From assembly GCA_001874005.1 (NCBI GenBank), contig MNYJ01000002.1:1-37612 (forward strand): 37,612 nt of DNA, given 5' to 3'. This document shows positions 33,662 through 37,612 of the stretch, piece after piece. Positions within the stretch are counted from its first letter, which is position 1; every line of letters starts with the position of its first letter. The translations under genes were made by a program, and so were the position numbers. This DNA is from Desulfobacteraceae bacterium CG2_30_51_40. GTDB taxonomy: Bacteria > Desulfobacterota > DSM-4660 > Desulfatiglandales > Desulfatiglandaceae. The notes below the pieces were generated by a model, which saw nothing but the letters and a program-made list of their open reading frames with translations, made no database searches and had not been told where the DNA came from.

Positions 33662-33737
33662 TCCCCGGTAGCTCAATAGGCAGAGCGGGTGGCTGTTAAC
33701 CACTAGGTCGGCGGTTCGAGCCCGTCCCGGGGAGCCA
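33662..33737 (+). tRNA. tRNA-Asn (anticodon GTT)
   Basis: A full cloverleaf of 76 nt can be drawn. The acceptor stem is TCCCCGG/CCGGGGA, the D stem GCTC/GAGC, the anticodon stem GGTGG/CCACT with loop CTGTTAA (anticodon GTT), and the T stem GGCGG/CCGTC with loop TTCGAGC. The discriminator base is G and CCA is encoded. It is followed at once by a terminator, and then by accessory DNA, which fits use of its 3' end as an integration site. Confidence 0.97.
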
Positions 33738-33746
33738 AATAAAAAC

Positions 33747-33780
33747 AAGGGCTTAGGCAAGAAAGGCCAAAGCCCTTTTT
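33747..33780 (+). terminator. Rho-independent terminator after tRNA-Asn
   Basis: AAGGGCTT (33747-33754) pairs with AAGCCCTT (33770-33777). The stem is extended inward by GGC/GCC after one mismatch, and a run of five T residues ends at 33780. It starts 10 bp after the tRNA 3' end. Confidence 0.85.
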
Positions 33781-33898
33781 CATTCAGGTCAATAACCTGT
33801 CAATAAACTCCCCCTCCGAAAGGGTGCGGCATGGCCCTTCCTCGGCAAGGGTGATCTCCTCGGGGTCTCGTCGTTTCAGGCGTGTCCACGCCGACTTA

Positions 33899-33931
33899 CC
33901 TGTCTGCCGTGCCGGGCACGGCACAGGCAGG
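33899..33931. repeat. 33-nt palindromic element, copy A
   Basis: It starts CCTGTCTGCCGTGCC and ends GGCACGGCACAGGCAGG, with a perfect 9-bp inner stem (TGCCGTGCC/GGCACGGCA) around one base. It has the same length as copy B in hsdM and matches it at 28 of 33 positions. Confidence 0.7.
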
Positions 33932-33993
33932 CGCCGGTCTCTGCTTCTACCGCCGGGTACTGGTCCCTGTCCGGGCAAATAGAACCGAGTTCC

Positions 33994-34029
33994 CCTGTCT
34001 GCGCCACAATTCTCGTCGCGGCAGGCAGG
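33994..34029. repeat. 36-nt palindromic element, copy C
   Basis: The ends are CCTGTCTGC and GCAGGCAGG, as in copies A and B, but the middle 18 nt are different and unpaired. It looks like a diverged member of the same repeat family. Confidence 0.5.
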
Positions 34030-34220
34030 CGGCCTGGCAGTACGTAGTCTGGGATCATTGGACCGGGAGCTTCAAAGAGCTAACCGGCGGAATCTGGCGT
34101 TGATTTTTCCCTCTGCGATTCCAAAAACGCTTGACATCAACTGTCAATAACTGTAAATTATGTGCTTGATATGAGGTATGTTTTGTCGAACTTTGCCTTG
34201 AGACCAGAGAGGTGCGCTTG

Positions 34221-34427
34221 ATGGATGAAAAACCAGGTGCCGTACTGACCATCGAAGAGTTGGCCGCCTACCTGAAAATACCGAAGTCGACGCTCTACAA
34301 GCTCGTTCGGGAAGGCAAGATCCCCTCCCAGAAGATCGGCCGGCACTGGCGTTTCCGGAAAGGAGCCATTGACCATTGGCTGGAAGAAACGCGAGCTGCC
34401 AAGCCCGTTTCAGGAGGAGATCGCTAA
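34221..34427 (+). CDS. Excisionase-family (MerR-like) helix-turn-helix protein
   Basis: A 68-residue protein consisting of one winged-HTH of the excisionase/DNA-binding type: LTIEELAAYLKIPKSTLYKL, then VREGKIPSQKIGRHWRFRKGAIDHWL. Such small proteins are common at the start of type I restriction gene sets and on mobile islands, where they may act as regulators or recombination directionality factors. The ATG at 34221 lies eight bases after AGAGAGG; a GTG at 34212 is in frame but less likely. hsdM follows after 65 bp. The composition appears more GC-rich than the genes left of the tRNA. Confidence 0.88.
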   Translation: MDEKPGAVLTIEELAAYLKIPKSTLYKLVREGKIPSQKIGRHWRFRKGAIDHWLEETRAAKPVSGGDR

Positions 34428-34492: not shown

Positions 34493-36538
34493 ATGAACCA
34501 TTTCGGCGAAAAAGTAAGCTTCATTTGGTCGGTTGCCGACCTCCTTCGCGGACCCTATCGGCCAAATCAGTACAAGGACGTCATGCTCACTATGACTGTT
34601 CTTCGCCGTCTCGACTGTGTCCTTTCGCCCACCAAGGACAAGGTTCTCGAACAGCAGAAGAAGCTTTCTGGCGGCAAGGTCAAAAACCTCGATCCCATCC
34701 TCTGCCGCGTCACGGGCGTGCCGTTCTATAACACCAGCCGGTACACGTTCGAAAAGCTAAAGGGCGACCCGAACAACATCGCCGCAAATCTGACCCATTA
34801 CATCAAGGGGTTCTCCACTCGGGCACGGGAGATCATCGAGCACTTCGGGTTCGAGGAACATATCGCCAAGCTCGACAAAGCCGACCGGCTTTACCTGGTG
34901 GTAGCCAAGTTCTGCGATATCGACTTGCACCCGCATGCCGTCTCGAACATCGAGATGGGTTACATCTTTGAGGAGCTGATCCGGAGATTTAATGAGGCAT
35001 CGAACGAAGAGGCCGGCGACCACTTCACCCCCCGTGAGGTCATTCGCCTGATGGTGAACCTCCTCTTTATGCCGGATGGCGACATCCTCACCACCAAAGG
35101 CATCGTCAAGACCCTCTACGACCCGGCCTGCGGGACGGGCGGCATGTTGTCCGTGGCTGAGGACTACGTGCGCGAGCTCAATCCCGATGCGCGCCTGGAG
35201 GTCTTCGGGCAGGACTACAACGCCCAGGCTTACGCCATCTGCGGTTCCGACATGATGATCAAGGGGCAGGATATCGAGCACATCGCGTTTGGCGACAGTT
35301 TCACCGATGACCGGTTTCCGCGCCATAAGTTCGATTACATGCTGGCCAATCCGCCCTTCGGCGTTGAATGGAAACCGCAAGCCGGCTTCATCACGCGCGA
35401 ACACGAAGAACAGGGGTTCGGAGGACGCTTCGGCGCTGGATTGCCCCGCATCAATGACGGCTCCCTTCTCTTTCTGATGCACATGATCAGTAAGATGAAG
35501 CCTGCCTGCCGCGACGGCCACGGCGCAGGCAGGGAGCCGAAGATAGGAGGCACCCGCCTTGGAATCGTCTTCAACGGGTCGCCGCTGTTCACCGGTGCGG
35601 CCGGGTCTGGAGAAAGTGAAATCCGCCGCTGGATCATCGAGAACGATTGGCTGGAGGCCATCGTCGCTCTGCCGGACCAGCTCTTCTACAACACGGGCAT
35701 CTACACCTACCTCTGGATCGTCACCAACCGGAAAAAGCCGGGCCGCCGGGGCAAGATTCAACTGGTGGACGCAACGAGCTTCTTCAAGAAGATGCGCAAA
35801 TCCCTCGGCAATAAACGAAACGAAGTCTGCAGCGATCAGCGCGACGAGATAACCCGACTCTACGGGAATTTAGAAGATGCAGATCATGTCCACATTTTCG
35901 ATAACCAGGACTTCGGCTACCGGCGCATCACCGTTGAACGTCCCCTGAGGCTCAACTTCGCAGTGGACGAGGCTCGGATCGCCCACCTCAAAGAAACCAC
36001 GGCTTTCGCCAACCTCGCTTCCAGCAAGAAACGCAAGGATACAAGGGCCGCTGCCGCCGAGATCGAAGAAGGTCGCAGGCTTCAAGAAGCCATCCTTTCC
36101 GCCCTGCGGCCGCTTGCCGCTAAAGGTATGGTCAAGAACCGGGAAAAGTTCGCGGAGATGATGAAAGAGACGTTCAAGAAGTCGGATCTCAAGGTCCCGA
36201 CCGCGCTCTTCAAGGCAATGCTCATGGCCCTTTCCGAGCGGGACGAGACGGCGGACATCTGCACAGACTCGAAGGGGAACCCCGAACCCGATCCCGAACT
36301 GCGCGACTACGAGAACGTGCCTCTCAAGGAAGACGTAGCTGAATACATGAAGCGAGAGGTCCTGCCCCACGTGCCCGACGCCTGGGTGGACGAAACCAAG
36401 ACCAAGATCGGCTACGAAATCAACTTCAACCGCTATTTCTATAAATACACCCCACCCCGCCCGCTGGATGAGATCGAGGCCGACCTCAAGAAGATTGAAA
36501 AGGAAATCGCCGAGATGCTCGCGGAGGTGACCGAATGA
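34493..36538 (+). CDS. hsdM: Type I restriction-modification DNA methyltransferase subunit HsdM
   Basis: A 681-residue N6-adenine methyltransferase. The helical N-terminal HsdM domain (about 1-150) is followed by the catalytic domain with SAM motif I YDPACGTGGMLSVAEDY and catalytic motif IV NPPFGVEW. A long C-terminal region (about 500-681) is rich in charged helices and may contact HsdS. In the middle, SKMK is separated from EPKIGGTRLGIVFNGSPLF by 11 residues (PACRDGHGAGR), encoded exactly by a 33-nt palindromic element. ATG 34493 follows GAGGAG. The stop overlaps the next gene by ATGA. Neither hsdS nor hsdR appears in the window; they may lie beyond the right end. Confidence 0.95.
   Translation: MNHFGEKVSFIWSVADLLRGPYRPNQYKDVMLTMTVLRRLDCVLSPTKDKVLEQQKKLSGGKVKNLDPILCRVTGVPFYNTSRYTFEKLKGDPNNIAANLTHYIKGFSTRAREIIEHFGFEEHIAKLDKADRLYLVVAKFCDIDLHPHAVSNIEMGYIFEELIRRFNEASNEEAGDHFTPREVIRLMVNLLFMPDGDILTTKGIVKTLYDPACGTGGMLSVAEDYVRELNPDARLEVFGQDYNAQAYAICGSDMMIKGQDIEHIAFGDSFTDDRFPRHKFDYMLANPPFGVEWKPQAGFITREHEEQGFGGRFGAGLPRINDGSLLFLMHMISKMKPACRDGHGAGREPKIGGTRLGIVFNGSPLFTGAAGSGESEIRRWIIENDWLEAIVALPDQLFYNTGIYTYLWIVTNRKKPGRRGKIQLVDATSFFKKMRKSLGNKRNEVCSDQRDEITRLYGNLEDADHVHIFDNQDFGYRRITVERPLRLNFAVDEARIAHLKETTAFANLASSKKRKDTRAAAAEIEEGRRLQEAILSALRPLAAKGMVKNREKFAEMMKETFKKSDLKVPTALFKAMLMALSERDETADICTDSKGNPEPDPELRDYENVPLKEDVAEYMKREVLPHVPDAWVDETKTKIGYEINFNRYFYKYTPPRPLDEIEADLKKIEKEIAEMLAEVTE
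35501..35533. repeat. 33-nt palindromic element inside hsdM, copy B
   Basis: CCTGCCTGCCGCGAC...GCGCAGGCAGG has the same length and ends as copy A and differs at five positions. It inserts 11 codons in frame. Removing it restores the family-like sequence SKMK-EPKIGGTRLGIVFNG. Confidence 0.75.
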
Positions 36539-37612
36539 GCGATCAGCCCATAAAGCCATCCGGTTTGGGCGAAATCTCTCCGAAGTTGCTTTGCGACATC
36601 CAGCAAATGATCGAGGAGGCCCGTGCCGCCGTCGCTGTTACGGTGAATGCCGGGCTGACCATGCTCTATTGGCGAATCGGCGGGCGTGTTGGCCAGGAGA
36701 TTCTCAAGGGCTCACGGGCCGAATACGGGGAAGAAATTGTCTCGACGGTGTCGAGACAATTGGAGATGGAATATGGAAGCGGGTTTTCTGCAAAAAACAT
36801 CCGCCACATGATTCGATTTGCCGATGTCTTCCCCGATGTTCAAATAGTCTCTACTATGTCGAGACAATTAAGCTGGTCTCATTTCAAGGAGATTATTTAC
36901 TTGAAAGAACCGTTGCAGAAGGAATTTTACGCAGAGATGTGTCGGGTGGAACGTTGGAGCGTCCGCACCCTTCGGCAGAAGATAGCCTCCATGCTCTACG
37001 AGCGCACGGCCCTTTCCAAAAAACCGGCGGAGCTGGCAAAGCTCGAACTTCAAGCCCTGCGCGAAGAAGACAAGATGACTCCCGACCTGGTCTTCCGCGA
37101 CCCCTACCTGCTCGACTTTCTTGGATTGAAAGGCGCTTACCAGGAAAAAGACCTGGAAGCGGCCATCCTGCGTGAACTGGAATCCTTCATCCTGGAATTG
37201 GGCGGCGGCTTCGCCTTTGTCGCCCGCCAGAAACGCATCACCGTGGATCATGACGATTTTTACCTGGACTTGCTCTTTTTCCATCGTGACCTGCGGCGGC
37301 TGGTGGCGGTGGAACTCAAGCTCGACAGGTTCCGGCCCGATCACAAGGGCCAGATGGAGTTATATCTGCGCTGGCTTGAGAAACACGAGCGCAAACCGGG
37401 GGAAGATTCGCCCCTGGGCATTATCCTCTGCGCCGGGAAAAACGCCGAACAGATCGAACTTCTGGAGCTCGGCCGCTCGGGCATCCACATCGCCGAATAC
37501 CTGACCGTGTTGCCGCCCAAGGATGTTCTGAAACGCAAGTTGCATGAGGCCATCGAGCGTTCCCGGCTGGCCCTGGAGAACCGCGGCGAGGATGCGGGCG
37601 AGGCAACCGCAA
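36535..37612 (+). CDS. DUF1016/YhcG-type PD-(D/E)XK nuclease, 3' end outside window
   Basis: At least 359 residues, open to the window end. The N-terminal DUF1016 domain (about 10-190) has the family pattern LYWRIGGRV, YGEEIVSTVSRQLEMEYG and MSRQLSWSHFKEIIYL. The C-terminal nuclease domain shows YLDLLFFHRDLRRLVAVELKLDRFRP, containing the D...ExK catalytic core of PD-(D/E)XK enzymes. It starts by ATGA overlap with hsdM, so they are co-translated. Such proteins often sit inside type I restriction loci. A role in DNA defence is likely, but its exact part is not known. The tail (AIERSRLALENRGEDAGEA) is near the natural end of the family. Confidence 0.9.
   Translation, partial: MSDQPIKPSGLGEISPKLLCDIQQMIEEARAAVAVTVNAGLTMLYWRIGGRVGQEILKGSRAEYGEEIVSTVSRQLEMEYGSGFSAKNIRHMIRFADVFPDVQIVSTMSRQLSWSHFKEIIYLKEPLQKEFYAEMCRVERWSVRTLRQKIASMLYERTALSKKPAELAKLELQALREEDKMTPDLVFRDPYLLDFLGLKGAYQEKDLEAAILRELESFILELGGGFAFVARQKRITVDHDDFYLDLLFFHRDLRRLVAVELKLDRFRPDHKGQMELYLRWLEKHERKPGEDSPLGIILCAGKNAEQIELLELGRSGIHIAEYLTVLPPKDVLKRKLHEAIERSRLALENRGEDAGEATA

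Follow-up and report, generated by a model that had tools for sequence, protein, structure and literature searches.

The locus described here raises the question of how a palindromic DNA unit came to lie in frame within a methyltransferase gene, and whether it stands alone or belongs to a dispersed family. The window, i.e., the whole stretch of 37,612 nt analysed (contig MNYJ01000002.1 of Desulfobacteraceae bacterium CG2_30_51_40), contains at 34493-36538 on the forward strand hsdM, encoding the 681-aa methyltransferase subunit of a type I restriction-modification system (Pfam HsdM_N and N6_Mtase; PADLOC MTase_I, 1.5e-297). The 33-nt palindromic unit CCTGCCTGCCGCGACGGCCACGGCGCAGGCAGG is found at 35501-35533 on the same strand, where it occupies codons 337-347 in frame and is translated as PACRDGHGAGR. 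It folds as DNA with -13.6 kcal/mol (z -3.4).

HsdM homologues were searched in 297 genomes of the phylum. In three close homologues (G211, G201, and G101, with 92, 90, and 87% identity, respectively), hsdM is shorter than the window gene by exactly 33 nt. Their empty site reads AAGATGAAG directly followed by GACCC, while the window has AAGATGAAG, the 33 nt, and then GAGCC, and no target duplication is found at the insert by comparison with these three empty sites. The whole 33-nt unit has entered hsdM in frame and without target duplication. The first-pass annotation had claimed that the unit adds exactly 11 codons to hsdM and that its removal restores a family-like sequence. Both claims held, the three homologues being continuous across the joint. 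The case named as a refutation, the same 11 residues encoded without palindromic DNA, was absent among the more than 55 HsdM homologues aligned.

In the phylogenetic tree, the HsdM of the window clusters with the insert-free G211, G201, and G101 proteins. Since these nearest relatives belong to other families of the phylum, hsdM has perhaps been acquired horizontally. Another genome, G224, carries a 30-nt unit in hsdM at the identical nucleotide position, and a second unit starts 18 nt past the end of the first in this decaying gene; its HsdM is on a separate branch, alongside that of the insert-free G056. Two separate insertions into the same loop are the simplest reading, which the tree favours; a common origin is not excluded because the units that G224 and the window carry at this position have similar interiors. 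Local conversion of the gene by an hsdM like that of G224 is not supported, as the sequence beside the insert is closest to that of G211 and G201, which have no insert, rather than to that of G224, while a conversion tract no longer than the unit itself remains possible.

The insert falls between the motifs KM and GG(T/S)R, where HsdM homologues naturally differ by several residues. In the AlphaFold model of HsdM (mean pLDDT 86), a helix (residues 323-333) and a strand (355-361) enclose a segment with pLDDT below 50 (342-349), most of which lies inside the insert; the insert is therefore predicted to be a flexible loop. The 11 extra residues thus occupy a low-confidence loop of the model; the first-pass annotation had proposed to test whether they fall in a surface loop. 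Their effect on methylation is probably small, although this is inferred without enzyme or expression data.

Two further units of the family are present in the window. The one at 33899-33931 on the forward strand is also 33 nt long, differs from the hsdM unit at five positions, and lies upstream of it with a start-to-start distance of 1602 nt; it is apparently intergenic, and no ORF of more than 100 aa spans it. A copy of equal length with five differences, 1.6 kb away in non-coding DNA, had been claimed in the first-pass annotation, and this held, but a third copy had been overlooked. This 36-nt unit, at 33994-34029 on the reverse strand, is located between the other two, is inverted with respect to both, and has 17 nt (CGTCGCGGCAGGCAGGC), in inverted form, in common with the hsdM copy. 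Six occurrences of the word CCTGYCTGC were counted in the window, where 0.74 would be expected, and none of 100 shuffles reached this number. Scanning of the whole genome (3.4 Mb) for units of this type, a check proposed at the outset, gave about five, three of which are those of the window. The others are a 36-nt unit at C225:9663 and a 28-nt unit at C57:5521, and the protein at the former is about 12 residues longer than its homologues, providing a second case in this genome.

The surroundings of the three units can be described as follows. In the region 33662-34427, a tRNA-Asn gene is followed by DNA that is free of genes and holds two of the units, and hsdM is preceded by a short ORF of helix-turn-helix (excisionase-like) type, a layout like that of an integrated island; in an Rfam search for known structured RNAs, the tRNA alone was matched. 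Because the tRNA-Asn lies beside the units and the nearest relatives of hsdM are found in other families, it is possible that the three copies clustered beside the tRNA and the restriction-modification gene arrived with horizontally acquired DNA. Directly downstream of hsdM, at 36535-37612, a gene for a PDDEXK-type nuclease (PADLOC PDC-S02), cut by the contig end, occupies the place where hsdS would be expected. Inside this gene, at 36735-36869, there are two 28-nt copies of AAATTGTCTCGACGGTGTCGAGACAATT, which are 86% alike and one of which is a near-perfect palindrome.

The units conform to the consensus CCTGYCTGCCG(N)CAGGCAGG, a probably non-autonomous hairpin of 21-45 nt. They were searched for with the gapped pattern CCTGYCTGCCGN{2,26}CAGGCAGG, which allows every length equally; the counts cover only units fitting a fixed motif, and nearly all data come from metagenome-assembled genomes (MAGs). 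The pattern was present in 26 of 99 relatives, with well over 100 matches and up to 28 per genome, while the reversed pattern had no match in the 99 relatives. Units were also found when 84,980 species genomes were scanned, a result to be taken as a lower bound, and some of these matches are expected by chance. The record titles name Desulfobacteraceae, Nitrospirae, Omnitrophota, Patescibacteria, Bacteroidetes, Verrucomicrobia, Planctomycetes, Kiritimatiellaeota, WOR-1, Saganbacteria, TA06, Acidobacteria, and Chloroflexi (about a dozen phyla overall), and nearly all are metagenome-assembled. Family units are also found on many IMG/VR contigs. A family spanning phyla exists, the units being rare in the genome studied here and common in other genomes of its family and in other phyla.

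Megablast returned nothing from plasmids for the commonest 30-nt unit, and only a single weak, chance-like match from phages for the unit of the window. The family is nearly missing from isolate genomes, plasmids, and isolate phages and is common in MAGs from groundwater and sediment. No description of its sequence or peptides was found in the literature searched, subscription papers being outside our reach. At loci of two relatives (L026, L091, L085, and L086 in G062 and G058), some units are nested in a conserved repeat of greater length, where one unit seems to sit in the loop of another. A second short palindrome family, CCCTGAGC..TCGAAGGG, was noticed in 12 of 46 relatives and not in the genome studied here.

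In-frame insertion is shown also for genes other than hsdM. Among the relatives, units are read in frame in HsdS (two), type III Mod (two), a PglX-like methylase, HmaB, a DUF499/HmaC ATPase, two SNF2/HmaA pieces (one holding four units), an integrase, PyrK, and a TPR protein. In other phyla, the hosts are the DNA polymerase III alpha subunit (DnaE), methionyl-tRNA synthetase (MetRS), a polyprenyl synthase, dihydropteroate synthase (DHPS), a histidine kinase, and another HsdM. The PyrK of G095 is longer than a same-genus homologue by exactly ten residues (30 nt). In another PyrK (L404 in G132), the loop that holds the unit in G095 has an ALSEVEG-containing insert, noticed along with the second palindrome family. 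In G018, genes matching the Hma (helicase-methylase-ATPase) defence system at L014, L068, L069, and L072 together contain seven or more units in frame, with four in a single helicase fragment. The two features that define protein-coding palindromes, namely palindromic DNA that is in frame and missing from close homologues, and occurrence of the same repeat in several unrelated proteins as well as in non-coding DNA, are both met.

Unit lengths favour multiples of three, with peaks at 21, 24, 27, 30, 33, 36, 39, and 42 nt. When units within three mismatches were merged into clusters, 62 of 94 clusters had such lengths, against one third expected (P 1.1e-10). The preference persists outside clear ORFs (26 of 36 without a spanning ORF of 120 aa, P 2.1e-6), ORF length being a rough proxy for gene calls, and the chance matches included in the genome set would dilute the excess. 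Steps of one codon are not expected from hairpin geometry alone, since each added base pair adds two nucleotides. All six reading frames are open in 83 of 116 units, compared with 44% of shuffled units. Of 37 units lying in clear ORFs, whether in relatives or in other genomes, 28 have the reading phase that yields LPA...QAG (P 1.7e-7), which avoids cysteine at the unit ends.

The units fold as bulged hairpins and so fit the REP-type description of a 20-40 nt hairpin with a bulge or mismatch. Positions 5 and -9 covary (57 C-G and 18 T-A pairs among 92 units). This supports a fold CCTGY/RCAGG in which two bases bulge out and the terminal CAGG stays unpaired, as well as selection on the folded strand. 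The flanks show only a weak preference, for R at -1 and Y at +1.

Comparison with known systems can place the family only in part. Rickettsia palindromic elements (RPEs) were reportedly described by Ogata et al. in 2000 and 2002, and Wolbachia reportedly has equivalents; RPEs measure about 105-150 bp and are restricted to Rickettsia (PMC2229807, PMC10969869). As with RPEs, the present units are palindromic repeats that are tolerated in frame in many unrelated proteins, have intergenic copies, and have no known transposase. They differ in having about a quarter of the RPE length, in spanning about a dozen phyla, and in favouring lengths in steps of three; the sequences are also presumed, without direct comparison, to be different, and no Rickettsia appeared among the titled matches inspected from the large scan. 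The likeness to protein-invading palindromes of Rickettsia suggested by the first-pass annotation has thus held and been widened to many unrelated proteins and other phyla, with the qualification that the element is not an RPE and has only about five units in its own genome.

The GTAG/CGTC super-families of REPs, whose main hosts are gamma- and alphaproteobacteria (Di Nocera et al. 2013, PMC3733652), share with our units the 20-40 nt bulged hairpin and intragenic copies, several of which have been described in DNA-repair and related genes (PMC3733652). The present units lack the GTAG/CGTC tag and, at the 30 loci examined for the exact motif words, a link to RAYT, and their length spectrum in multiples of three is their own feature. 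Translatable palindromes were also reported in 2005 (cited in PMC2229807), but these are archaeal and from one species. Intragenic MITEs such as ERIC, Correia/NEMIS, and QMITE1 are similarly small, non-autonomous, and able to fuse in frame with ORFs; they are typically larger and have terminal inverted repeats, and several families make TA target duplications (PMC2229807), while the empty site of hsdM shows none. No autonomous partner transposon sharing terminal repeats was found, Y1_Tnp alone having been sought. The family acts like RPEs and intragenic REPs without meeting the defining features of any named group.

Several other explanations must be weighed. That the units belong to the known GTAG/CGTC super-family of REPs, mobilised by RAYT transposases, is suggested by their similar size (20-40 bp), by a hairpin that has a bulge and may leave a tetranucleotide (CAGG/CCTG) unpaired at one foot, by the intragenic REPs on record (PMC3733652), and by the occurrence of Y1_Tnp genes in genomes with units. 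We consider this unlikely, since GTAG/CGTC beside 190 units is at chance level (3 and 6 upstream against 3.7 expected), RAYT/Y1 genes have no flanking units (30 loci, exact motif words only), Y1_Tnp is equally present in 19 unit-free genomes, and G018, with 16 units, holds just truncated Y1_Tnp ends. It could also be held that the 11 residues are ordinary length variation of a loop which does vary naturally by several residues among HsdM homologues, the palindrome being coincidental or the product of local duplication. This is practically ruled out by the match of the inserted DNA to a family at hundreds of unrelated places, by the exact empty site, and by the lack of any homologue encoding the 11 residues without the palindrome.

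The units might be suspected to have arisen artificially when metagenomes were assembled or libraries prepared, because almost all titled matches are MAGs, contigs frequently end near units, and plasmids and phages gave no match of note for the units tried. This is very unlikely, as the insertions preserve the frame and a length in multiples of three and have diverged interiors, units decay together with a decaying gene (G224), and large conserved ORFs read through units in independent projects and phyla. A positive function of the hairpin, for instance in regulating hsdM through the structure of its mRNA or DNA or in diversifying loops of defence proteins adaptively, would be in line with the many in-gene copies in defence genes of relatives, for which there is no background comparison, and with occupation of the HsdM loop in two lineages, one of them having two units. 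We doubt this explanation too, because housekeeping enzymes also host units, no position is conserved except the HsdM loop, and the closest homologues have no unit.

Our preferred explanation is that the hsdM unit represents a hairpin element which is dispersed and non-autonomous and whose insertion leaves no target duplication, and we regard this as likely; its spread as selfish or neutral sequence is inferred. Copies with a length in multiples of three and without stops in frame would survive in genes, in surface loops and linkers, and would seed more copies. Since most bacterial DNA is coding, such copies would be filtered for, and the family would consequently stay frame-neutral even outside genes. 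As to movement, the likeliest route, though unproven, is that a folded single strand is excised and inserted in trans by an enzyme of the HUH (Y1-type) class or a similar one, as has been proposed for REPs. The absence of target duplication fits such an enzyme, but this is conjecture, and the mover is unknown. RAYT/Y1_Tnp was rejected as the mover, being present alike in genomes with and without units and not being flanked by units at the loci examined. No pair of near-identical strains differing by one copy was found, and both present mobility and a mobilising enzyme are inferred only.

Protein-coding palindromes are already known from single genera (Rickettsia and Wolbachia) and from occasional intragenic REPs. 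A bolder reading, which could as readily prove wrong as right, is that a single cross-phylum class of tiny hairpins, evolved or selected to be frame-neutral by changing length in steps of a codon and keeping every frame open, colonises the coding DNA of uncultured bacteria, and that hundreds of proteins, core replication and translation enzymes included, have gained short peptides such as LPAEASAQAG, LPAGQAG, and PACRxxxAGR. LPAEASAQAG-like peptides in metagenome proteins should be taken as inserts and not as conserved domains, a point of importance when such proteins are annotated, aligned, or modelled in structure. With hundreds of loop insertions made by nature, the family would also be material for studying how proteins accept new segments. 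If true, a family of about a dozen phyla that keeps to codon steps also outside genes would mean that selfish DNA adapts to coding sequence.
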